In this document: one piece after another, positions 1,995 to 22,834 of the stretch | How positions within the stretch are numbered: position 1 is the stretch's first letter | Layout: each line of letters begins with the position of its first letter | Source of the DNA: Syntrophaceae bacterium | GTDB taxonomy: Bacteria; Desulfobacterota; Syntrophia; Syntrophales; Smithellaceae | Reading direction: 5' to 3' | Assembly (NCBI GenBank): GCA_016927935.1 | Contig: JAFGLS010000020.1 | Coordinates: forward strand, 1-33,793 | Length of the DNA: 33,793 nucleotides | Made by a program: the position numbers and the translations under genes | The notes under the pieces: model-generated | What the model was told of the DNA's origin: nothing | Databases searched by the model: none | Seen by the model: only the letters and a program-made list of their open reading frames with translations

Positions 1995-2462
1995 ATGAAA
2001 CTTTCCACAAGAACACGGTATGGAGTCAGATTGATGGCCGAACTGGCCGTTAATAACGGTAGGGGGCCTGTATATCTGAAAGACATTGCCCGTTCACAGA
2101 ACATTTCTGAAAAATATTTGAGTTTGATTATTATACCCCTCAGAAAGAATGGCTTCGTTAATTCAGTTAGGGGAGCCCATGGCGGGTATAAAATCGCCAA
2201 AGATCCATCACAGATTAATCTAAAGGAGATATTAGACCTGCTGGAAAAAGACTGCTCTCTTGTAAAATGCATCAGTGAGCCATCCACATGCCCGAGAGTG
2301 CCCATCTGCGCAAGTCATGACATCTGGGCAATTATCGGCGGCAAAATTGCCGATATTCTGAATTCGATCACACTGGATACACTGGTAAAGATGACCCATG
2401 AAAAAGAGAAAAAAGCAGGGGCGTATAACATTTTGAACACAACAGAAAATTTACAGTATTAA
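1995..2462 (+). CDS. Rrf2 family transcriptional regulator, probable Fe-S sensor
   Basis: Winged-helix regulator of the Rrf2 family (IscR/NsrR/RirA relatives), 155 aa. The start is taken at ATG 1995 because it gives the family N-terminus MKLSTRTRYG; an in-frame TTG at 1983 would add four residues. The wing motif GAHGGY is present. Counting from the TTG, cysteines at 91, 96, 103 and 109 plus His112 form a cluster like the one that holds a [2Fe-2S] or [4Fe-4S] centre in sensing members. The gene ends 12 bp before the first Hdr-like gene and shares its direction, so it most likely controls that operon in response to iron-sulfur, redox or NO status. Its exact signal cannot be read from the sequence. 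Confidence 0.87.
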   Translation: MKLSTRTRYGVRLMAELAVNNGRGPVYLKDIARSQNISEKYLSLIIIPLRKNGFVNSVRGAHGGYKIAKDPSQINLKEILDLLEKDCSLVKCISEPSTCPRVPICASHDIWAIIGGKIADILNSITLDTLVKMTHEKEKKAGAYNILNTTENLQY

Positions 2463-2474
2463 TGGGAGTATGAT

Positions 2475-3434
2475 ATGAAACATCAAAGTCCGTCTAGCGG
2501 AATTAAAAAAACTTCCGGAATAAGTTCCTGGAATGAAATAAATCGTAACCTCAATCAACTATCAGATGAGGAAATCATAAATTTATATTATCAGCTTCGC
2601 GATGAATGCAGCGGTACCGGTAAAATTTCTCACTTTCCCAATATCAAATATCTTTATGCGACGCCTTTTGAAAGGGAAAAGGATCGCCGTGAACAGCAAC
2701 AATGGCAGAAAAAACAGAAAGTCATTTCCGAAGTTATTGACTGGTATCGTAAAGCAAAAAACAAATCCTGCGTCTGGTGGCTGGAAAATCACGTCATTGC
2801 CAAACATTCCGCATCAAGCTGCATGAATTGCGGCGCCTGTACAGCTCTCTGTCCAGCGGCGGAATTTTATGACTTCAGCCCGCGGGAAATCATGACGATA
2901 ATACAGGAAAAAAATGAAGATTCCATAATCGGATTATTGAAGTCGGAGACAATCTGGTACTGTCATCAGTGCGGTTCCTGCAAGACAAAATGCCCGCGGC
3001 AGAACAGTCCTTTCGGCATGATTTCTTCCTTAAGACAATTAAGCCAGATCAAGGGATATCACATCGAAAGCGTTCGCGGCAGACAGCAATACTTTGGACG
3101 TCATTTGTGGGGCGGCAATCTCTGGAACAGAGCCTGCACCCTATACTTCAGAAACGCAATTCCTGATACTCATCAGGATTTCGGTCCCCGGTTCGAAACG
3201 TATTTTAACCGACAGGATGAATTTATGAAGCAGGTGGGGGCTCATCCGGATATGGAAGGTCCGTTCTCCGGTCGTAAGGTTCATCCTGAAACCTTGAAGG
3301 AACTAAGAAAATTATGGATAGCCGGCGGAGCGGTATTTTTCTGGTCGCTCATTGAAGAGGCAGCCCGAAGGCAGGCAAAAGAGATGAATCTGTCCATTGA
3401 TGAATATCACAACAAAGTAAAAACAGAAGGCTGA
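2475..3434 (+). CDS. HdrC-like 2x[4Fe-4S] protein
   Basis: 319 aa, soluble, electron-carrying subunit related to heterodisulfide reductase HdrC. Two complete ferredoxin-type motifs are visible: C116-C119-C122-C126 and C163-C166-C169-C173, each CxxCxxCxxxC and each suited to a [4Fe-4S] cluster. A basic, helical N-terminal 110 residues and a C-terminal extension of about 125 residues flank the clusters, so it is clearly longer than methanogen HdrC (about 190 aa). No membrane helix of QmoC or DsrM type is present. A GGGAG site precedes the ATG. The next gene, HdrB-like, starts 6 bp later, which implies a joint complex. The role as electron relay is inferred from the family; the physiological donor is unknown. 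Confidence 0.8.
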   Translation: MKHQSPSSGIKKTSGISSWNEINRNLNQLSDEEIINLYYQLRDECSGTGKISHFPNIKYLYATPFEREKDRREQQQWQKKQKVISEVIDWYRKAKNKSCVWWLENHVIAKHSASSCMNCGACTALCPAAEFYDFSPREIMTIIQEKNEDSIIGLLKSETIWYCHQCGSCKTKCPRQNSPFGMISSLRQLSQIKGYHIESVRGRQQYFGRHLWGGNLWNRACTLYFRNAIPDTHQDFGPRFETYFNRQDEFMKQVGAHPDMEGPFSGRKVHPETLKELRKLWIAGGAVFFWSLIEEAARRQAKEMNLSIDEYHNKVKTEG

Positions 3435-3440
3435 GAATCA

Positions 3441-4478
3441 ATGGTGAATTACAATAAAAAAGGCCGCCAGCAGCTTTGGGAAAAGTATTCCAAAGGTATT
3501 CCGGACGATAACTATTTTCTTACTTTCAGTTGCATTTTAGGCAGTTTTTATCCTGCTTCGGAAACAATGGTCCCCAGACTTTACGATCAATTGAATATTA
3601 ACTGGAAGACGCAATTCGAATCAAAATCAGGATGGTCCTGTTGCACGGCGATCGGCTACCATGGCGATATCATGCCGATTGAATCCACTCTATTGACGGT
3701 GGCCAGGCTCTGGTCAATTGCCCAGGAATCAGGAATGCAGGTTGTTACACCGACTTGTGTGACGTCATTCGGCACTTACTGCGAATGCAAGGATATTCTT
3801 GAGCACGAACCTGACCTGAGAAAAAAAATTAAAAAATTATTGAAGGAAACCTGCGGTCGTAATTTTGAACTTCCGGAATATCTCGTTCATGTGAGCGACA
3901 TCTATTACCATCATCGCGAACACATCAAAAAACATTTCAAGTACAGTTTAACAGAGATTAATACAGGCCGTCCTCTTCAGGTGGTGGATCATGTTGGCTG
4001 TCACTACAACAAGTTGTTTCCGGAAAAACAGACAATCGGCGGTTCCGAATATTGCGACGTACTTGCCGGTATGGTGCGGTCTTGGGGGGGAGAAAATATT
4101 GACTATCCGGAACGCCGTCACTGCTGCGGTATGGGATTCAGGCAATGCATGATTCCGCCAAACCGCGGAGCAACACTTTCCAATGTATACAAAAAGATAA
4201 GAAGCATGGCGCCTTTCTATCCCGATCTGATCGTTACCAACTGCCCCGGCTGTGAGGTTTTTCTGGATAAGGAACAGTGGGCAATTTTTGAATTGACCGG
4301 TAATAAATATTTCATTCCCGTTCTTACCTATCAGGAACTGGCCGGTTTGCTTTTAGGATGGGACCCTTATGACATAGTGGGTATAGATTCGCATACCGTC
4401 CCCGTTGAACCTTTGCTGGATAAAATTGGCATTACTTATGAAAAAGAAAAATCAATGCACGTAGAAAATTATAAATAA
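3441..4478 (+). CDS. HdrB-like CCG-domain protein
   Basis: 345 aa, resembles the HdrB catalytic subunit of heterodisulfide reductase, with two CCG (cysteine-rich) domains that in known members bind non-cubane [4Fe-4S] clusters. The second domain is complete: C187, C228-C229, C268-x-x-C271. The first has C31, C67-C68 and C106, but Thr103 stands where the first Cys of the final CxxC should be, so that site may hold no cluster or a different one. It is placed 6 bp after the HdrC-like gene and 4 bp before the HdrA-like gene. In the family this subunit carries out disulfide or thiol chemistry; the substrate here is unknown, and genuine CoM-CoB chemistry is not expected in a bacterium. Confidence 0.8.
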   Translation: MVNYNKKGRQQLWEKYSKGIPDDNYFLTFSCILGSFYPASETMVPRLYDQLNINWKTQFESKSGWSCCTAIGYHGDIMPIESTLLTVARLWSIAQESGMQVVTPTCVTSFGTYCECKDILEHEPDLRKKIKKLLKETCGRNFELPEYLVHVSDIYYHHREHIKKHFKYSLTEINTGRPLQVVDHVGCHYNKLFPEKQTIGGSEYCDVLAGMVRSWGGENIDYPERRHCCGMGFRQCMIPPNRGATLSNVYKKIRSMAPFYPDLIVTNCPGCEVFLDKEQWAIFELTGNKYFIPVLTYQELAGLLLGWDPYDIVGIDSHTVPVEPLLDKIGITYEKEKSMHVENYK

Positions 4479-4482
4479 AAAC

Positions 4483-5535
4483 ATGGATAAAAAAACAACC
4501 AATAGTAAGGTACTGATAATCGGCGGCGGAGTAACAGGCCTGTCAACCGCTGTTAATCTGGATATGCTGGGAATCGATTCAATAATTATCGAAAAAACTT
4601 CTGAGATGGGCGGGAAGGTAAAAGAATACTCCAGGATATTTCCGGATTTTCGCAGTGGAAAAAATATTATCCAAGAGCTTATTGACAAAGTTAAGCAATC
4701 ATCGCGCATCAAACCTGTTGTTTCCACATTCATTACGTCGGTAGAAAGAATAAACGGAACGTATTCTGTTCTCGCATCAAATAATAAAAAATATAATGTC
4801 AGGGCCATTATCCTTGCCTGCGGCTTTGAAGTCTTTAACGCACGGCTTCAGGAAGAATATGGTTATGGTGTTTACCCTAATGTCATTAATTCATTAGAGT
4901 TGGAATCCATGCTGAGTGCCGATGAAGAAGGGATATTGCTGAGACCATCTGACGGAAAACCGGCCAAAAGAATGGCAATTGTCTTTTGCGTCGGTTCACG
5001 AAGCAAGCGGCTGGGTAATCCATATTGCTCAAGAATATGCTGTTCATACAGCACGAAACAGGCTATTGAAATAATGGAAAGGATTCCCGATGCAAGCGTA
5101 ACCTGTTTCTATATAGACATCAGAACCTATGACCGTGGTTTTGAAGAAATGTATCAATACGCGCAGGAATTGGGCGTCAAATATGTCCGTGGACGCGTAT
5201 CCGAATGCAGTGCCCTGCCCAATGGAGACATTCATGTTCGGGCTGAAAACACACTGTTGGGCAACCCGGTTCAGGGAATATTTGACATTGTTTCATTATC
5301 GGTGGGCATGATGCCATGCGCCGATGCCGATAATCTGGCAAAACTTTTGAGTATTGAACGCAGCGAGGATGGTTTTTTTACAAGAAAAGATAGTTTTCTT
5401 TCGCCGCATGACACGGTTAGGGAAGGCATTTTTCTTGCCGGCAGTTTAACAGGTCTAAAACCGATAAAAGACTGCCTTTTAGAAGGCATGTCCGTAAGCA
5501 GCAGAATTACCGCTTATCTCGGTAAAAACAAATAA
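4483..5535 (+). CDS. Short HdrA-like FAD oxidoreductase
   Basis: 350 aa flavoprotein of the HdrA/thioredoxin-reductase-like fold. The dinucleotide motif GGGVTGLSTA near residue 14 binds FAD, and the HdrA-specific segments VFCVGSRS, CSRICC (cluster-binding cysteines) and FYIDIRTYDRGFEEMY are present. It lacks the N- and C-terminal ferredoxin domains of methanogen HdrA (about 650 aa), so it matches the compact HdrA of the sulfur-oxidiser sHdr complex more than a bifurcating HdrA. QmoA is also compact, but QmoB and membrane QmoC are missing here. It sits between the HdrB-like and fused HdrC-HdrB-like genes with gaps of 4 and 8 bp. It probably links the two thiol-active modules electronically. 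Confidence 0.82.
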   Translation: MDKKTTNSKVLIIGGGVTGLSTAVNLDMLGIDSIIIEKTSEMGGKVKEYSRIFPDFRSGKNIIQELIDKVKQSSRIKPVVSTFITSVERINGTYSVLASNNKKYNVRAIILACGFEVFNARLQEEYGYGVYPNVINSLELESMLSADEEGILLRPSDGKPAKRMAIVFCVGSRSKRLGNPYCSRICCSYSTKQAIEIMERIPDASVTCFYIDIRTYDRGFEEMYQYAQELGVKYVRGRVSECSALPNGDIHVRAENTLLGNPVQGIFDIVSLSVGMMPCADADNLAKLLSIERSEDGFFTRKDSFLSPHDTVREGIFLAGSLTGLKPIKDCLLEGMSVSSRITAYLGKNK

Positions 5536-5543
5536 TAATTACA

Positions 5544-6812
5544 ATGAATCACAGAGAAATAACAAACATTGATTACGGTTTCAGATTAAACGGCAATCCC
5601 ATTCTTTTTTACAAAGACCGGTCGCTTGCAGCCGATGAATCAACACATCAGATGGAAAAAGCTCTGCGGCAATTGAGCATGGAATATTATGTTTTCGACC
5701 GTTGCCTGCAGTGCGGAATTTGTTCCAGTTCCTGCCCTTTTAGTATGCTGAAGATTGACGAACATTTCTCGCCGCGCACATTTATCCAAAAAACACGTCT
5801 GGGATTGCTTGACCTGGATAAGGAAGAACTTTGGACTTGCACTAATTGTGGAAGTTGTCAGATGGTGTGCCCTTTTGAAATCAAACTCCCGGAAGTAATG
5901 GCACAATTGCGGCATCTGGTTGTGGAACAGGGCGCCGGTCATGTACCTTTGTCCATCAAAAGTTCGACTTCATCAATAGCATCATGCGGCAATCCCTGGA
6001 GGGAAGAAACCGCGACAAGAACAAAATGGCTCAGGGAAAATGGAATAACTCAAGACACTTCCGATAACAAAAAGTCCATTCACATTTTTTTGGGCTGCCT
6101 TGCCGGATATGATCGGAGAGCGCACAAAACAGCTGAAGCGGCAATGCACATTCTTAAAATAGCCGGTATCCACTTTAAAATCCTGGCCGACGATGAAGTC
6201 TGCTGCGGGGATACCGCATGCCGGGTGGGAGATTTTTCCACAGCGAAAAGAGTTAAAAAGATTAATGAAGAAAATTTTTTAAGAAACAATATTGAAAAAC
6301 TGTATGTATTATCTCCCCATTGTTTCAGTACATTTAAAGATCTTTTCAGTTCAAAAGAGATGAAAAATATCAAAACAGCACCTCTTATCGAACTTATTCA
6401 TCAGCTATTCAGAAGCAGAACAATCAAGGTAAACGGCAATATAGAAAAAAAAGTTACATTTCATGACCCGTGTTTCTTCAGTAAACATCTGGACATTATT
6501 GACCAGCCACGGGAAATTCTTCAGGAGATTCCGGGAATTGAATTTGTAGAGATGGAACACTACGGAAAGAAAAGTTTATGCTGCGGCGGCGGGGGCGGCG
6601 GTATCTGGAGGGATGTAAAAAAAGGCGAACGCCTGTCGGAAGTCCGCCTGGATGAGGCTATCGCAGTTGGTGCACAAATAGTTGTCACCAATTGTCCCTA
6701 TTGTCTGTCAATGCTGGAGGATGCCAGACAAGGGGACGAAAAATACAAATTTTTGGAAATTATGGATATTTTTGAATTAATCAGGAAAGGAATGAACTAT
6801 GAAAATAATTGA
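5544..6812 (+). CDS. Fused HdrC-HdrB (HdrD-like) Fe-S protein
   Basis: 422 aa. The N-terminal HdrC part has two ferredoxin motifs, C54-C57-C60-C64 and C99-C102-C105-C109. The C-terminal HdrB part has two CCG domains: C185, C220-C221, C260 (Ser257 replaces the first Cys of the last pair) and C310, C346-C347, C384-x-x-C387. The second is complete and followed by a Gly run (348-353). The C-to-B fusion is known from HdrD, GlpC and other respiratory (Fe-S) proteins. It has no membrane span. It follows the HdrA-like gene by 8 bp and overlaps the amidohydrolase gene by 14 bp. In this operon it would be the second thiol/disulfide-active module, giving a C1-B1-A-C2B2 set. Confidence 0.82.
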   Translation: MNHREITNIDYGFRLNGNPILFYKDRSLAADESTHQMEKALRQLSMEYYVFDRCLQCGICSSSCPFSMLKIDEHFSPRTFIQKTRLGLLDLDKEELWTCTNCGSCQMVCPFEIKLPEVMAQLRHLVVEQGAGHVPLSIKSSTSSIASCGNPWREETATRTKWLRENGITQDTSDNKKSIHIFLGCLAGYDRRAHKTAEAAMHILKIAGIHFKILADDEVCCGDTACRVGDFSTAKRVKKINEENFLRNNIEKLYVLSPHCFSTFKDLFSSKEMKNIKTAPLIELIHQLFRSRTIKVNGNIEKKVTFHDPCFFSKHLDIIDQPREILQEIPGIEFVEMEHYGKKSLCCGGGGGGIWRDVKKGERLSEVRLDEAIAVGAQIVVTNCPYCLSMLEDARQGDEKYKFLEIMDIFELIRKGMNYENN

Positions 6813-7623
6813 TTCCAGAGTGCGCCTGCGCACAGAACAGTGTCTTAAGATTTTAACTGATGAAAACAAGAACTGTTATAGTGAATACGTTCATCTGTAC
6901 AAAATGAAATCACGCCTCAGTCCTCTACCGGTGAAAGAGCTGATAGAAATTGCCGCAAGCAACAATATAGAACAGATGATGGCTTACGGTATTTCGACGG
7001 AAGAAAACGAGCATATTCTAAATATAGCTCGACAATTTAAAGAAATTATTCCTATCGCCGGTATCAGTATCGGAAAGGGAATTCGCCACGCTCTGCGTGA
7101 CATCGGGAAGTATTGCGATGAAGGTACAGCCGCGATATTCATGTCACCTTTTGATTTAAACCACGCCCTCAACGACCGTCTTCTTTACCCTCTATACGGG
7201 ATGTGTGAATTAATAAAAAAACCGGTGATTATTCATGGCTCAATACATTATTGGAGGGGAGCATATATGTGGCACGGCCAACCACAGTACATAGATGAAA
7301 TTGCAGTTGATTTTCCGGAGCTGAAAATTATTGTTTCCCACGGCGGAAATGGTTTTGGTCCTTCCATTCTTGCTGTTGCCCAGCGGCATCCGAACGTTTA
7401 CCTGGAATTCAGCGCTCTTAATCCGTCTTACATGGCCCCGGAATTTCTTTATGCTGCCAATACCTACCTGAAAAACAAGTGTATTTTCGGCACCGATTAT
7501 CCGCTTGTTGATTTTAAGGTGGCTATCGCGCGCTGGGAAAAAATACTGCGTGAAAATGTTAAAGAATTATTTTTCCGCCAGAATGTACTGGATGCTTTAT
7601 ATAAAGCACCAGATGCTTTTTAA
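6799..7623 (+). CDS. Amidohydrolase-2 fold protein with altered metal site
   Basis: 274 aa TIM-barrel protein of the amidohydrolase/ACMSD-like superfamily. The usual first metal motif HxH after strand 1 is replaced by Arg (IDSRVRLR, R7 and R9), while the later ligands are kept: H146 in IIHGS, H181 in SHGGNG, and D233 in GTDYP. With HxH missing, the normal mononuclear Zn site is incomplete, so the protein may use another metal geometry, bind substrate without hydrolysis, or serve a non-hydrolytic role such as decarboxylation. The 14-bp overlap with the fused Hdr gene means obligate co-expression, so its substrate is probably what connects to the Hdr-like complex. The reaction is unknown. Confidence 0.75.
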   Translation: MKIIDSRVRLRTEQCLKILTDENKNCYSEYVHLYKMKSRLSPLPVKELIEIAASNNIEQMMAYGISTEENEHILNIARQFKEIIPIAGISIGKGIRHALRDIGKYCDEGTAAIFMSPFDLNHALNDRLLYPLYGMCELIKKPVIIHGSIHYWRGAYMWHGQPQYIDEIAVDFPELKIIVSHGGNGFGPSILAVAQRHPNVYLEFSALNPSYMAPEFLYAANTYLKNKCIFGTDYPLVDFKVAIARWEKILRENVKELFFRQNVLDALYKAPDAF

Positions 7624-7647
7624 AAGAATAATCAAGGAGGTATGAAC

Positions 7648-8139
7648 ATGGAATCGGGAAAGTTTTGCGACATAGCGGATGATTTTCAACATGGCAAAAA
7701 TTTTAAATGCGGATCGTTTGTTAAAATCGAAAATAATGTTGTTGTAGGTGATGATGTAACCATAGAAAATTATGTTCTGTTAAAAAAAGGTACAAGAATA
7801 GGCAATAATGTTTATGTAGACAGCTATTTCAGGTCTTCCGGAAATAACAAAATTGGAAGCAATGTTACATTGCGATTTGGCAGCACCATTGCCAGAGAAG
7901 TAACCGTGGAAGACGATGTATTTATATCTCCAAATGTTATGACCATTTATTCACGCCATACGGGTGAGAAAATCGGCGGCACTGTGATCGGCAAAGGAAC
8001 CCATGTTGGCACTGCCGCAGTCCTTGGACCTGGAGTTAAAATCGCCCCCAATTCTGTAATCGGAACTCAGTCATACGTCAGTAAGGATATAACCGAAGCA
8101 GGTATATATGCCGGAGTACCGGCAGTTAAGAAAAAATAG
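7648..8139 (+). CDS. Hexapeptide-repeat (left-handed beta-helix) acyltransferase
   Basis: 163 aa built almost entirely of [LIV]-G-x4 hexapeptide turns (for example VVVGDD, TRIGNN, NKIGSN, TVIGKG), ending in the xAT-type IYAGVPAVKKK tail. Such trimeric enzymes transfer acetyl or other acyl groups from CoA or ACP to sugars or amino groups; some relatives (gamma-carbonic anhydrases) do not. The start is set at ATG 7648 because AGGAGG (7635-7640) lies 7 bp from it, but only 1 bp from the upstream in-frame ATG at 7642. It is the last gene of the Hdr-like operon, 24 bp after the amidohydrolase. The acceptor is unknown; its association with the operon is by position and a strong ribosome-binding site. 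Confidence 0.78.
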   Translation: MESGKFCDIADDFQHGKNFKCGSFVKIENNVVVGDDVTIENYVLLKKGTRIGNNVYVDSYFRSSGNNKIGSNVTLRFGSTIAREVTVEDDVFISPNVMTIYSRHTGEKIGGTVIGKGTHVGTAAVLGPGVKIAPNSVIGTQSYVSKDITEAGIYAGVPAVKKK

Positions 8140-16726: not shown

Positions 16727-17122
16727 ATGAAGGATTTTCCGGAAGATATAATTTACAGTTGTGAACACATATGGGTAAAAGTTGACGGGAATATGGCTAC
16801 GATAGGCATCACCGATTATGCCCAAGAAAGACTTGGTGATATTCTTTCCGTTGAGTTTATTGAAAATGATACTTATGTGGAGCGTGACGAAACATTCGGC
16901 TCCATCGAATCTGTTAAAGAAGTTGTGGATTTGATTTCTCCTGTCAGTGGAACGATTATAGTCATCAATGAGGACATTCTTGATGATGTCAGTGTAATTA
17001 ACAGAGATCCTTACGATACAGGTTGGTTAGTTGTTATAGAAATGGATAATTTGGAGCAACTGCAGGATCTTCTTGCCGCATCCAACTACCATGACTTTAT
17101 AACACAGGAAGAAAGCGAATGA
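16727..17122 (+). CDS. gcvH: Glycine cleavage H-like lipoyl carrier protein
   Basis: 131 aa, the size of GcvH. The lipoylation site K64 is in SIESVKEVVDLISPVSG, the family signature, and the sandwich-barrel fold is kept to the C-terminal NLEQL. The protein would carry lipoate on K64 and swing between partner enzymes. No gcvT, gcvP or lpd is present in the window, so it may serve a glycine cleavage system encoded elsewhere, act as an assembly intermediate for lipoate on other enzymes, or be an LbpA-type carrier of an Hdr-like system. The next gene, a lipoyl/octanoyl transferase, starts 10 bp later. Confidence 0.85.
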   Translation: MKDFPEDIIYSCEHIWVKVDGNMATIGITDYAQERLGDILSVEFIENDTYVERDETFGSIESVKEVVDLISPVSGTIIVINEDILDDVSVINRDPYDTGWLVVIEMDNLEQLQDLLAASNYHDFITQEESE

Positions 17123-17131
17123 GCTTTTTCT

Positions 17132-17962
17132 ATGGTCTGGAGATTGCTTGATTTTCAAAATTATAATATTTTTGAAAACATGGCCATAGATGAGGCTGTT
17201 TTTTATGAAACTATAAAAAACAAAAAACAGCCCACCATAAGATTTTATTCTTCAACTCCGGCAGCAGTTACTATCGGTTATTTTCAGAATGCGAAAAAGG
17301 AGTTAAATATTGGAGAATGCCGCGCGGGAGGAATTGATATTACTCGCAGAATTACAGGCGGACAGGCGGTTTTTCATTTTAATGAAATGACATATTCAGT
17401 AACAGCGGCAGAACAGGAAAAAATTTTCCCCGCTGATATTACGGGAACTTACAAAATAATAGGCAAATGCATTGCTAGAGGCCTGAACTATTTAAGAATA
17501 GAGGCGGGACTCGCTGAAAAAGGCCGTACCCTAAAGAAAGAAGATATAAACTCCTGCTGTTTTTTTACTCCTTCGAAAAACGAGCTTCTGGTTAATGGCC
17601 GTAAGATTTGTGGTAGCGCTCAGGTGAGAAGAAGAGGAGGATTTTTACAACACGGATTACTACTTTTGGATTTCGATCCGGAAAAAACTGCCGGGTTCCT
17701 CCTGCCGAACTATATGCCCAAACTTTTGGAAAAATTCAAGAAAACGGTGACATCGGTTAATGAAGAGCTTGCTCATTCTGTTGAAATAAAGGAAATTTTA
17801 TCAAAATTAAAAAAAGGATTCATTGAAGAACTGGAAATAGATTTACAGGAAGAAAGCTTGACTCCGGCGGAAGAAAAACTGAAAAATGTATTGATGAAAA
17901 AATATATGGACTCTGACTGGAATATAGAGAGGAAAAAATATTTTAAAGCAGGCCGATTATGA
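17132..17962 (+). CDS. LplA/LipM-family lipoyl or octanoyl transferase
   Basis: 276 aa member of the biotin/lipoate ligase fold. It shows RRITGGQAVFH (72-82) for acyl-substrate binding, and K158 within GRKICGSAQ, the catalytic-lysine motif of the family. The pair C142-C143 followed by F before that motif resembles the CF of LipM, where a Cys carries the octanoyl group. It may therefore be a LipM-type octanoyltransferase to GcvH or an LplA ligase using free lipoate plus ATP. It is encoded 10 bp after gcvH, the likely acceptor, and overlaps hisC by 4 bp (ATGA). A clear Shine-Dalgarno is missing, so translation is probably coupled. The exact enzyme activity is undecided. Confidence 0.8.
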   Translation: MVWRLLDFQNYNIFENMAIDEAVFYETIKNKKQPTIRFYSSTPAAVTIGYFQNAKKELNIGECRAGGIDITRRITGGQAVFHFNEMTYSVTAAEQEKIFPADITGTYKIIGKCIARGLNYLRIEAGLAEKGRTLKKEDINSCCFFTPSKNELLVNGRKICGSAQVRRRGGFLQHGLLLLDFDPEKTAGFLLPNYMPKLLEKFKKTVTSVNEELAHSVEIKEILSKLKKGFIEELEIDLQEESLTPAEEKLKNVLMKKYMDSDWNIERKKYFKAGRL

Positions 17963-19544: not shown

Positions 19545-20198
19545 ATGGAAGAAAAGCAATACTTAATTGATTCATTATCCATTAATGAATCGTGGAGAGT
19601 GTTTCGTATTATGGCTGAAATTGTTGAGGGTGTTGAAGCTCTTTCTAAAATTGATAACGCCGTCACTTTTTTCGGTTCCGCCAGAGTAAAACCCGATGAC
19701 ATTTACTATCAAAAAACCGAATTTCTGGCCCGGCTTCTCGTTCAAAACGGGTTTAACGTTATTACCGGTGGCGGACCGGGAATTATGGAGGCAGCCAATA
19801 AAGGCGCCAGTGAAGCGGGCGGCAAGTCGGTAGGAATGAACATTAAGCTGCCGTATGAACAAAGGCCCAATGCCTACTCTAATATACATCTTGAATACAA
19901 ATACTTCTTTGTCCGCAAGGTGATGTTTGTCAAATACGCAGTTGCTTATGTGATAATGCCGGGCGGCTTTGGCACGATGGATGAATTTTTTGAAGCACTT
20001 ACCTTAATTCAGACAAAGAAAATTAAGCCCTTCCCCCTGATTCTGATGGGAAGAGAATACTGGCAAGGATTAATAGACTGGTTGAAAAATAAGATGATTA
20101 CAGAAGGTAAAATTGATCCTGCTGATATGGAACTGATTCAAGTAGTTGATGAACCAGAAGAAGCAGTTAAACTCATTAAGAAATACGTTTTAGTATAA
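19545..20198 (+). CDS. LOG family protein (TIGR00730 Rossmann fold)
   Basis: 217 aa. Both family signatures are present: GGGPGIMEAANKGA (75-88) and PGGFGTMDE (139-147). In plants and several bacteria such proteins are cytokinin riboside 5'-monophosphate phosphoribohydrolases that cut nucleotide 5'-monophosphates into base and ribose 5-phosphate; older annotation as lysine decarboxylase is wrong. Cytosolic, probably dimeric. It starts at ATG 19545 after a GGGGG purine site and lies between rpsU and holA, 24 bp before the latter. The physiological substrate is unknown. Confidence 0.88.
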   Translation: MEEKQYLIDSLSINESWRVFRIMAEIVEGVEALSKIDNAVTFFGSARVKPDDIYYQKTEFLARLLVQNGFNVITGGGPGIMEAANKGASEAGGKSVGMNIKLPYEQRPNAYSNIHLEYKYFFVRKVMFVKYAVAYVIMPGGFGTMDEFFEALTLIQTKKIKPFPLILMGREYWQGLIDWLKNKMITEGKIDPADMELIQVVDEPEEAVKLIKKYVLV

Positions 20199-20222
20199 TT
20201 CTCAATATTAGCCTTTGCAGTT

Positions 20223-21572
20223 ATGGAAAAAATCTTCGCCAATCTGAAAAAGGGCATTATTGCGCCCTGCTACCTTCTTTACGGGGAAGAAGAATATCTT
20301 ATAAATGAAACTCTCAACAAAATTTTAGACACAATTATACCTGAAGCTGATCGGGATTTCGGTCTCTTTTATCTGGATGGCGAAAACATTGACATGGAAA
20401 GCTTGACTGATGATCTTCGTACGCCTTCTCTTCTGGGCAACAAAAAAGTAATCGTCATCAAAGACACGACGATTTTTACCTCCCGAGAAAATTTGGCTAA
20501 ACTCATCGAAAAGATTCGCAGCACCATGGATGACAATCCGGACAGAGCAGCAAAGTATTTTCTGACTTTCCTGAATAACACCGGTTTTTCCATAGAAGAT
20601 TTGCAGGGCGCCGGCTGGCGGAAAATTACCGATGAAAAATGGAGTGAAATCGTCAGGGGAGATACAGGAGAAGACCGCGAAAAATGGCTGCCGCGTATTC
20701 TGGAAATATGCCAGGCATCTGGACTGACTGATAATTCAGTTACCGATAAAACAGAAAAGCTGGAAGAAATTTTAAAAACGGGTTTGCCCGAGGGAAACTG
20801 CCTGATTTTCACGGCTGAGACCGTAGATAAAAGAAAAAAAATATACAAAATTATTGAAGCAGCCGGTGTTACTAAGCATTTCGGCGAGGTCAAAAAAGAG
20901 CAAGTGCGAGCAGAAATACTTCAGAAGGAATCTGAGAAATTACTCAAGAAGTACGGTAAGAAAATGTCGCCGGCTGCCTTGGTCGCTCTGGGCAGGAAAA
21001 CAGGATTTGATTTCTGGCGTTCAATTTCAGAACTTGAAAAGCTTATTTCCTTTGTTGGTGATAGCGAACTTATTGACAAAGATGATGTTGACGAAGCTGT
21101 CGGCAGAACAAAAGAAGATAACATTTTCACTTTAACCAACGCCCTTGGTGAAAAAAATCAACTTGCCGCCATTGACTCTCTGCAAAATCTTTTGGATCAG
21201 GGAGTTCATCACCTGATGATAATGACAATGATTTCCAGGGAAATCAGACTGCTTTTGCAGGCCAGAGTTCTGGTTGATTCCGGGAAACTGCCCAAGTTCA
21301 ATGATAGTATAGAATACGGCTGGTTTCAAAGTGTTCTTTATCCGGCATTCAGTAAATTGAACACAGCATCAGCAAAACACGAAGGCCTTATTTTCACTCA
21401 GCATCCTTTTTCTGTTTATAACGCCATGCGCAACTGTTTATACTTCACAACAGCGCACCTGATTGATCTGATGGAAGAACTCCTCAATCTGGAGCTAGCA
21501 TTAAAAACATCCGGCACTTCCAATCCTAAATTATTGCTGGAAAATTATTTGATCAAAGCCTGCACTAATTAA
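20223..21572 (+). CDS. holA: DNA polymerase III subunit delta, with inserted segment
   Basis: 449 aa. The N-terminal PCYLLYGEEEYLINE (15-29) is the HolA signature, with domain I-II AAA-like folds, and the C-terminal helical collar starts near EDNIFTLTNALG (about 300). HolA opens the beta-clamp in the clamp loader. It is about 100 aa longer than the usual 340; the extra stretch, about 95-195, is charged and helical and lies in domain I before LIFTAETVDKR. It shows no sign of frameshift or stop. It is convergent with the HcyBio gene, with a hairpin between. Confidence 0.85.
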   Translation: MEKIFANLKKGIIAPCYLLYGEEEYLINETLNKILDTIIPEADRDFGLFYLDGENIDMESLTDDLRTPSLLGNKKVIVIKDTTIFTSRENLAKLIEKIRSTMDDNPDRAAKYFLTFLNNTGFSIEDLQGAGWRKITDEKWSEIVRGDTGEDREKWLPRILEICQASGLTDNSVTDKTEKLEEILKTGLPEGNCLIFTAETVDKRKKIYKIIEAAGVTKHFGEVKKEQVRAEILQKESEKLLKKYGKKMSPAALVALGRKTGFDFWRSISELEKLISFVGDSELIDKDDVDEAVGRTKEDNIFTLTNALGEKNQLAAIDSLQNLLDQGVHHLMIMTMISREIRLLLQARVLVDSGKLPKFNDSIEYGWFQSVLYPAFSKLNTASAKHEGLIFTQHPFSVYNAMRNCLYFTTAHLIDLMEELLNLELALKTSGTSNPKLLLENYLIKACTN

Positions 21573-21664: not shown

Positions 21665-22834
21665 TTAAACTGAAGGTAAATTTTGCTGCGGTTCGCCCAG
21701 AATAAACCGGCCACTTTGAATCCACTCTTTTAATTCATTGGCAATTTGCCTGGCCTTAAAATAACTGGATAGAGGCGCTGTAACAACTTTTTTGCCGTTT
21801 ATTATAATAGTCCCACCGCGCAAATCTTTGTAATTCACCTCTGCCAGGGGCTTAGGATTGCCTTTGGGATAATCCATGCTGTAATCGTAAACCTGAGTAA
21901 AAATATCTTCGTCCTTCACTGAGGTAAAAAGAGCCATCTCTTCATCAAGAATAGGAATAGGAATTCCTATGCCAACAAACAAAGAGACCCCATATCCTAA
22001 AAAGCTCGCTCCGGTTAACCATTGAGGCTTCATTTCTTTAAGGTTACCAATAACTGCAATTGTACCTGCTCCCTGCTTGGGAACTCCCTTCACCGTACGG
22101 GGAACGTTGGGATTATGCTGTGTGCCCGGCCAGGCGATAAAACCCTGCGTTCCTCCCAAAAATATGCGCGTACCAATACCTATCGTCCGATAATAGGGAT
22201 CGTTAAATAAAGGACTCAATTGTGCCGAGGTAGAATAAGCAGCATTAGCCATCTGCGGACGAAGCATTCCCATATAAGTATAAATCGTCCTGTCCGACAG
22301 ATTAACCGCGCAATTATAATTCTGGTACGCATTGCGCGGATTGAACAAAATAGCGTTCTGCAAATCTTTTATCGTTATATTTTTTTCAAATTTTCTCGCC
22401 GGGTAACAATCGGTGCCATAGCCTTCTGCACGCAGCTTGACGACATTGCCGGACACGAGATCCTCGATAACATGACCGCCTCCGTAATTGAATTCTCCAG
22501 GATAAACGCTGTTGAGCGGGTCATTTTCTACAACTTCCGTAGCTCCGATATAACAATCCACAGCGGCAATTCCGCCATAAGCCGGGACATCATTGAGCCA
22601 CACCTTGGACGCCCGAATGCGGGGCGAAGTATGACCAAAATTGAGAAAAACCCCCGAGGAACACATCGGACCGAATGTTCCGGTAGTAACAACATCTATT
22701 TTACGGGCTGCCTCGACTTCGCCATGCCGCTCAACAACGTCGATCATCTCTTCCGCCGTGACGACAACAACACGCCCTTCTTTTATCTTTTCGTTTATTT
22801 CTCTTAATGTTTTCTGAACTTTGAATTTTTTCAT
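21665..22834 (-). CDS. HcyBio (DUF39) homocysteine biosynthesis protein
   Basis: 389 aa, Pfam DUF39/HcyBio family. In methanogens a DUF39 protein (MA1821) works with a ferredoxin-domain partner to form homocysteine from aspartate semialdehyde using sulfide, replacing the usual O-acylhomoserine route; the activity is named L-aspartate semialdehyde sulfurtransferase. Recognised by GTFGPMCSSGVFLNFGH (52-68) with Cys58, and GYGTDCYPARKF (138-149) with Cys143, plus Cys94. The C-terminus has no CBS or ferredoxin domain, and no partner gene follows. It is the last gene on the minus strand, 82 bp after dut. Confidence 0.85.
   Translation of the reverse strand: MKKFKVQKTLREINEKIKEGRVVVVTAEEMIDVVERHGEVEAARKIDVVTTGTFGPMCSSGVFLNFGHTSPRIRASKVWLNDVPAYGGIAAVDCYIGATEVVENDPLNSVYPGEFNYGGGHVIEDLVSGNVVKLRAEGYGTDCYPARKFEKNITIKDLQNAILFNPRNAYQNYNCAVNLSDRTIYTYMGMLRPQMANAAYSTSAQLSPLFNDPYYRTIGIGTRIFLGGTQGFIAWPGTQHNPNVPRTVKGVPKQGAGTIAVIGNLKEMKPQWLTGASFLGYGVSLFVGIGIPIPILDEEMALFTSVKDEDIFTQVYDYSMDYPKGNPKPLAEVNYKDLRGGTIIINGKKVVTAPLSSYFKARQIANELKEWIQSGRFILGEPQQNLPSV

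Follow-up and report, generated by a model that had tools for sequence, protein, structure and literature searches.

The window analysed in this study, which is the entire 33,793 bp contig C212 of a Syntrophaceae genome (G000; 239 contigs totalling 3.38 Mb, with a completeness of 90.9% and a contamination of 5.0%), harbours a single tight operon at positions 1995-8139. In this operon a gene for an Rrf2-family regulator is followed by four genes related to those of heterodisulfide reductase (Hdr), designated C1, B1, A and C2B2, and by genes for an amidohydrolase-like protein (AMH) and a hexapeptide acyltransferase (HEX) (Table 1). Open reading frames (ORFs) and searches with Pfam and NCBIfam models bore out what an earlier, sequence-only reading had proposed, namely that two HdrC modules, two HdrB modules (one pair being fused), a compact HdrA, an amidohydrolase-like protein and a hexapeptide acyltransferase are encoded in close array. 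The intergenic gaps are 6 bp (C1-B1), 4 bp (B1-A), 8 bp (A-C2B2) and 18 bp (AMH-HEX), whilst C2B2 and AMH overlap by 14 bp. The same scan detected no gene for a hydrogenase, a formate dehydrogenase, Etf or a separate ferredoxin within the operon.

Table 1. Genes of the Hdr-like operon and the sequence features on which their assignments are based (positions within the window)
Gene and product	Position	Strand	Evidence
Rrf2-family regulator	1995..2462	+	PF02082, 119.1 bits; TIGR00738, 126.8 bits
C1, HdrC-type subunit	2475..3434	+	two [4Fe-4S] motifs (Pfam/NCBIfam)
B1, sHdr-type HdrB	3441..4478	+	CCG domain (Pfam/NCBIfam)
A, compact HdrA	4483..5535	+	HdrA core NF040770; FAD domain and cysteine-rich cluster region
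C2B2, fused HdrC-HdrB	5544..6812	+	4Fe-4S and two CCG stretches (Pfam/NCBIfam)
AMH, divergent Amidohydro_2 protein	6799..7623	+	Amidohydro_2 match; start inside the C2B2 gene
HEX, left-handed beta-helix hexapeptide acyltransferase	7642..8139	+	Hexapep match

C1 was utilized as the marker for counting orthologues of the unit, in genome sets that overlap and whose counts are not additive. True orthologues were found to be rare, being present in 4 of 155 genomes of the class, including the window genome, and in none of the 16 other genomes of the window's genus (both at E 1e-40). Among 395 genomes drawn from the phylum, searches with C1 (E 1e-22) and with B1 (E 1e-30) retrieved the same three, namely the window genome, G277 and the more distant G399; in the class of G277, which is another class of the same phylum, C1 was present in 1 of 46 genomes. 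A scan of named genomes with short exact patterns, which recognises close relatives only, returned one relative, Syntrophus sp. PtaU1.Bin005. On these counts the unit is rare and patchily spread, and its presence in a second class of the phylum, despite its rarity in its own, would suit horizontal spread.

Four relatives carrying the unit were compared with the window, these being G085, G096 (which shares its order with the window genome), G112 and G277. The order C1-B1-A-C2B2-AMH is kept in G085, where C1 is divided over two contig ends, and in G277; it is also kept in G112, with one membrane-protein gene added between B1 and A, whilst the G096 locus comprises C1-B1-A up to a contig end inside A. 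This recurrence in other genomes indicates that the gene order is not due to chance. The earlier reading had associated an amidohydrolase with the Hdr genes, and that association stands, with AMH following C2B2 in all three relative loci that extend past C2B2 (overlap of 14 bp in G085, as in the window, and 4 bp in G277; gap of 22 bp in G112). Identities to the window in G085, G112 and G277, respectively, were 79, 62 and 65% for B1, 76, 61 and 64% for A, 68, 47 and 50% for C2B2, and 79, 65 and 70% for AMH. As AMH is thus conserved to a similar degree as B1 and A, and is present in each of the three loci, five genes constitute the core unit. An AMH search in 60 relatives, a set that does not contain these loci, found nothing more than 37% identical beyond the window genome itself. 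In codon comparisons with G085, B1, A, C2B2 and AMH gave dN values of 0.13-0.22 and dS values that were about 1.8-2.7 or saturated, a combination indicative of purifying selection. The corresponding dN for HEX was 0.67. A HEX counterpart lies directly downstream of AMH in two of the three relatives (39% identity in G085 and 33.5% in G112), its orthology being unsure because hexapeptide proteins resemble one another via their repeats; in G277 the gene after AMH has no Pfam match, and no HEX is found directly there. The proposal of a six-gene unit was therefore overstated, in that five of the genes recur together and HEX is not strictly conserved, and what persists of the interpretation attached to it is a soluble Hdr-like complex linked to an amidohydrolase-fold protein, without the acyltransferase as a core member.

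The C1 proteins of the window, G096, G112 and G277 share an N-terminal extension of approximately 110 residues in alignment, and the G085 fragment matches the window protein from residue 17. The extension gave no match to solved structures (best E 0.79) and is missing from C1 of G399 and of a plasmid-borne cluster of Picosynechococcus. Both C1 and C2 carry two [4Fe-4S] motifs, and in B1 and B2 alike one or more of the CCG (non-cubane cluster) sites are complete. B1 has an intact second CCG motif, whilst its first comprises C, CC and C and reads CVTSFGxx(C/L)EC at the place of CxxC. The extra, last cysteine of this stretch and the CC pair were present in six of six rows (five family members and an orphan paralogue described below), and are lacking in B1 of G399 and Picosynechococcus. 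The second CCG motif of C2B2 is likewise complete, and the first has four cysteines, the last one being absent; the best scores of this protein were obtained with the TfrB model (below its cut-off) and with 9ojn. The 350-residue A protein comprises a FAD domain and a cysteine-rich cluster region, has no ferredoxin domains, and covers only the flavin part of HdrA models; it scored 276.8 bits against NF040770 (cut-off 1100), spanning only part of that model. It aligns over residues 9-337, nearly its full length, with the solved HdrA (6tjr) of the sulfur-oxidising Hdr-like (sHdr) system, and also with two stretches of methanogen HdrA.

The orphan B1 paralogue is encoded elsewhere in the window genome (L088 6049-7113; G000:C211, match 20051-21079), and is 77% identical to B1 of the window and 84% identical to that of G085. 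No C1, A or C2B2 match adjoins it, a small thioesterase-like ORF follows it directly, and no recognised sugar gene was found within the 14 kb inspected.

AMH belongs to the Amidohydro_2 fold family, which agrees with its earlier labelling as an amidohydrolase, but it lacks the HxH metal motif, for which R7-x-R9 is substituted in all four orthologues. The columns of R7 and R9 hold histidine in four HxH-bearing cousins, which indicates that the HxH positions have been correctly placed. The later-strand His, His and Asp of metal-dependent amidohydrolases are present as H146, H181 and D233, again in all four orthologues.

The regulator gene stops at 2462, 12 bp ahead of C1, and an ATG at 1995, in place of the TTG at 1983 in the ORF list, yields the usual Rrf2 N-terminus, MKLSTRTRYG. 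The protein did not reach the equivalog cut-offs for IscR and CymR and has four cysteines, three of them arranged as C-x6-C-x5-C, a spacing that was compared with that of known Fe-S-sensing Rrf2 regulators; for the window genome only, this motif hints that Fe-S or redox state exerts control. The previously proposed Rrf2 link consequently holds for the window and not for the relatives, beside whose copies of the unit no Rrf2 gene was seen. Scans of the window for promoters (31 against 25.7 +/- 4.8 expected) and terminators (11 against 9.8 +/- 2.7 expected) gave nothing convincing, nor did a search for inverted repeats upstream of the Rrf2 gene.

In all four relatives the unit is situated among surface-polysaccharide genes, with neighbours that differ between loci, and this context is an unexpected result that goes beyond the sequence-only reading. 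Upstream of the unit, G096 encodes a UDP-sugar dehydrogenase and a Gfo/Idh-hexapeptide fusion, and G085 a Gfo/Idh-hexapeptide and a heparinase-like protein, the latter genome having HEX, flippase, acyltransferase, PIG-L, Wzy_C and FdtA genes downstream. The G277 copy is preceded by DegT, Gfo/Idh and acyltransferase genes and followed by those for a MaoC-like protein and a flippase. In G112, NeuB/cytidylyltransferase and GT28-like genes lie upstream and a polysaccharide deacetylase gene downstream, with RmlD/DegT and Polysacc_synt_2 genes farther off on the same contig. A few of these neighbours, for instance the G085 flippase, were named by eye without a domain search. The upstream neighbours of the window copy are a nitroreductase gene and a TPR gene, and downstream are a helix-turn-helix gene, a secretin region and later the PNPase, TruB, RbfA, IF-2, NusA and RimP genes. 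Also in the window, at 21665-22834 on the minus strand, is a match to methanogenesis marker 16 (TIGR03287; 134.4 bits, cut-off 363.95), here in a bacterial genome.

Taken together, we tentatively favour the reading that C1-B1-A-C2B2 and the atypical AMH form the core of an accessory, patchily distributed, soluble flavin/Fe-S thiol-disulfide oxidoreductase that serves the tailoring of sugar coats. Somewhat more doubtful, yet conceivable, is the proposal that this Hdr-type complex functions in biosynthesis, performing thiol/disulfide- or sulfite-linked redox chemistry on a surface-polysaccharide sugar or substituent carrier, with the altered-site AMH as its dedicated partner. A would be the flavin hub, with electrons passing via C1 and C2 to the CCG centres of B1 and B2, and would exchange two electrons either between both CCG sites or between one of them and NAD(P)H. 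Such a complex would be an oxidoreductase of the thiol/disulfide type, or one for other sulfur bonds, as opposed to a bifurcating Hdr coupled to ferredoxin; given that there are no ferredoxin domains and no partner dehydrogenase, the simplest role would be that of a two-electron thiol/disulfide oxidoreductase. With less certainty, the context in the relatives points to a unit that acts when surface polysaccharides are made, tailoring either an activated and probably acidic sugar or the acyl group on it. AMH, in which arginines replace the metal histidines, might then handle an anionic intermediate by acid-base chemistry that dispenses with the usual metal site, and the product might be acylated or finished by hexapeptide acyltransferases of the HEX type that can replace one another. 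In the window genome, where the unit stands outside a polysaccharide locus, Rrf2 may adjust this Fe-S-rich operon in response to redox state or to the supply of Fe-S.

Several observations weigh against a role in sugar-coat tailoring. The window copy itself lies outside polysaccharide loci, with no sugar genes adjoining it, and both the unit and its context are known from four relatives, represented by sequence only, none of which is an isolate with known chemistry. HEX appears, from the comparisons above, to be a weakly conserved and variable member. Loss of HxH is not peculiar to AMH, as two Syntrophus-order cousins without Hdr (G038 and G042) also lack the motif and carry other residues there; two further cousins in G180 keep R7 and R11, not R9, and are encoded in catabolic-looking contexts near genes for a TRAP-type substrate-binding protein and AtuA, with no C1 match to G180 among the matches listed from the phylum draw. 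Structure predictions from four-sequence alignments were too poor for use, with a mean pLDDT of 39.8 for C1 and 51.9 for AMH. The Gfo/Idh-hexapeptide fusion, the only sugar gene that recurs in several of the contexts, is, moreover, common in the class, occurring in 56 of 155 genomes. It is present in three of the four unit-bearing class genomes (G000, G085 and G096, not G112), the window genome copy being on C93 (65%), and since the fusion is so widespread it is the general context that counts and not this gene. A specific pairing with a pathway of the UDP-diacetamido-uronate type, considered on account of this fusion, was dropped because the fusion is class background.

Two trees, one of the shared HdrA core (12 rows) and one of B1 (10 rows), bear on the placement of the unit. 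An HdrA lying firmly within a known complex would have counted against the sequence-only reading; in the HdrA tree the five family members form their own clade (100/99), with canonical HdrA in a separate clade (100/99), G399 and Picosynechococcus as a third group (88/85) and 6tjr on a long branch, the deep forks of this small tree being unresolved. In the B1 tree the family, G399 and Picosynechococcus are split at 100/100 from two canonical-type HdrB rows, again without resolution of the inner forks. By its B1 the unit therefore belongs on the broad sHdr-like side, but within no characterised complex.

The strongest alternative, albeit an unlikely one, is that the unit performs sHdr chemistry, in which carrier-bound sulfane sulfur is oxidised to sulfite for energy, for detoxification or for a sulfonated surface-coat sugar. 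The grouping of B1 and the end-to-end alignment of A with 6tjr are both consistent with it. It would also be favoured by a GcvH-like gene followed by a lipoate-ligase-like gene in the window (16727-17962), which are second to, and apart from, the GcvT-GcvH genes on C168; in two reports (PMC6067878, PMC10332631) the carrier gene lbpA is associated with hdrC1B1A-hyp-hdrC2B2, and LbpA is described as having two conserved cysteines that are missing in GcvH. The window protein, encoded 8.6 kb from the unit, exceeds ordinary GcvH cut-offs and has a single cysteine near its N-terminus and none at its C-terminus, and the pair was consequently rejected as an LbpA system. A tblastn search (1e-3) confined to the loci of all four relatives detected no GcvH- or LplA-like gene close to the unit, and none of the 12 loci searched at the same threshold gave a GcvH-like match. 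In one of the three full relative loci, that of G112, the gene between B1 and A (L070 8519-10084; G112:C152) encodes a YeiH-type membrane protein (PF03601), and for Hyphomicrobium, an sHdr organism, YeiH has been proposed to export sulfite. This protein keeps alive a version in which sulfite would be the product, but the other two loci are without it. Also at odds with sHdr chemistry are the missing hyp gene and the fusion of C2 with B2, and the clusters, which were not searched systematically for such functions, yielded no recognisable gene for sulfonate synthesis or for a sulfur carrier. A link to sulfite reductase (Dsr) was discarded, as the window genome, at the completeness given above, has no NIR_SIR match.

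It is improbable that the unit is instead an energy-metabolism module of syntrophs, in which NAD(P)H, thiols and Fe-S carriers would exchange electrons and which is found in polysaccharide regions by chance. Genomes of the Syntrophus order do hold further Hdr-type genes, with 12 CCG matches in the window genome and a set on its contig C165 that includes a full-length HdrA and an HdrCB-like protein, and the window copy stands outside a polysaccharide locus with its own Rrf2; however, the great rarity of the unit in class and genus is unlike that of a core energy enzyme, the operon is without a dehydrogenase, hydrogenase or Etf partner, and the polysaccharide context recurs in four of four relatives. 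No better supported is an incidental context, in which polysaccharide loci are variable regions gathering foreign cassettes and AMH and the Hdr proteins act jointly in a non-sugar process, since the patchy distribution, the solitary window copy, the orphan B1 paralogue away from recognised sugar genes, the G277 locus without HEX directly after AMH and the catabolic-looking settings of the G180 cousins are set against the siting of the unit in polysaccharide loci whose neighbours differ, in four of four relatives, and against the hexapeptide acyltransferase gene that lies directly downstream in the window and two of three relatives.

Hdr-like complexes are familiar from methanogenesis, sulfur oxidation and syntrophic electron transfer. 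If tailoring of surface polysaccharides by this unit is correct, it would give Hdr a role outside methane, sulfur and syntrophic energy metabolism, extending it to cell-surface biosynthesis, and would indicate an undescribed sugar modification. Should the sugar role fail, the unit would still represent a clear and testable branch beside sHdr and canonical Hdr. The C1 extension and the altered candidate HdrB ligands may be of use in asking which ligands set disulfide as opposed to sulfane-sulfur chemistry, and hdr genes alone would be insufficient for calling the genomes that bear this unit sulfur oxidisers. What appears to be new is an Hdr-like variant unexpectedly linked to surface-polysaccharide loci, related Hdr and sHdr kinds being already known. 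No such unit was evident by title or printed abstract in the literature covered, a coverage that mostly excludes subscription papers; further sources drawn on were PMC12423496, PMC11582611 and PMC12880088.

Among known systems, sHdr is defined, in PMC6067878, by the order hdrC1B1A-hyp-hdrC2B2 with separate C2 and B2. The unit shares with it the C1-B1-A order, a compact HdrA without ferredoxin domains, the B1 type and the presence of a second HdrC and HdrB. It differs in having no hyp gene and, as the earlier reading had noted for the window, a fused C2B2, the latter also in G085, G112 and G277, and further in the absence of an adjoining LbpA, the C1 extension, the extra B1 cysteine, the AMH partner and the polysaccharide context of the relatives. 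The cluster on the plasmid of Picosynechococcus sp. PCC 7003 (NZ_CP016476.1) has the same C1-B1-A order (identities of 40, 42 and 40%), but has separate C2 and B2, the latter only weakly similar to C2B2, a further FAD protein, a short C1 and no match to AMH or HEX. This cluster (L077 13113-18853), C1-B1-A-C2-B2 with the FAD protein, is an sHdr-like set in a cyanobacterium. G399 (L079 3578-13342; G399:C92) holds a further Hdr-like variant, in which C1-B1-A-C2 is followed by genes for a 608-residue CCG protein, a 4Fe-4S/NrfD fusion and a molybdopterin oxidoreductase. Tblastn of B1 against plasmids returned one Picosynechococcus record and three of Acidithiobacillus ferrooxidans (29.5%), of which the one inspected was rejected as an sHdr reference, having a lone B1-like gene and not an sHdr cluster; that 446-residue gene (L113 787-4490; NZ_AP025161.1) lies approximately 2 kb from gcvH, among hemerythrin/DUF2249 genes.

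Methanogen-type HdrABC (5odc, 8rvu, 9sfi) resembles the unit in its HdrB and HdrC domains and in the HdrA core, which is about 42-43% identical over some 230-247 residues, whereas the unit has an A without ferredoxin domains that falls in a separate HdrA clade, two B/C sets and no hydrogenase or formate partner. Canonical HdrB has two five-cysteine CCG sites; in the unit the second sites are complete, the first site of B1 has four cysteines plus the extra one, and that of B2 has four. The Amidohydro_2 proteins 3irs and 3cjp share with AMH the fold family, as judged by sequence, and the H146, H181 and D233 columns, differing at the R-x-R that stands for HxH in all four orthologues. With the fused HdrC-HdrB proteins of the TfrB/GlpC/DsrK type and the iron-sulfur-binding reductase 9ojn, finally, C2B2 shares its architecture and its best matches, but it scores under the curated cut-offs of the TfrB/GlpC/DsrK-type models and constitutes one arm of an HdrA complex.

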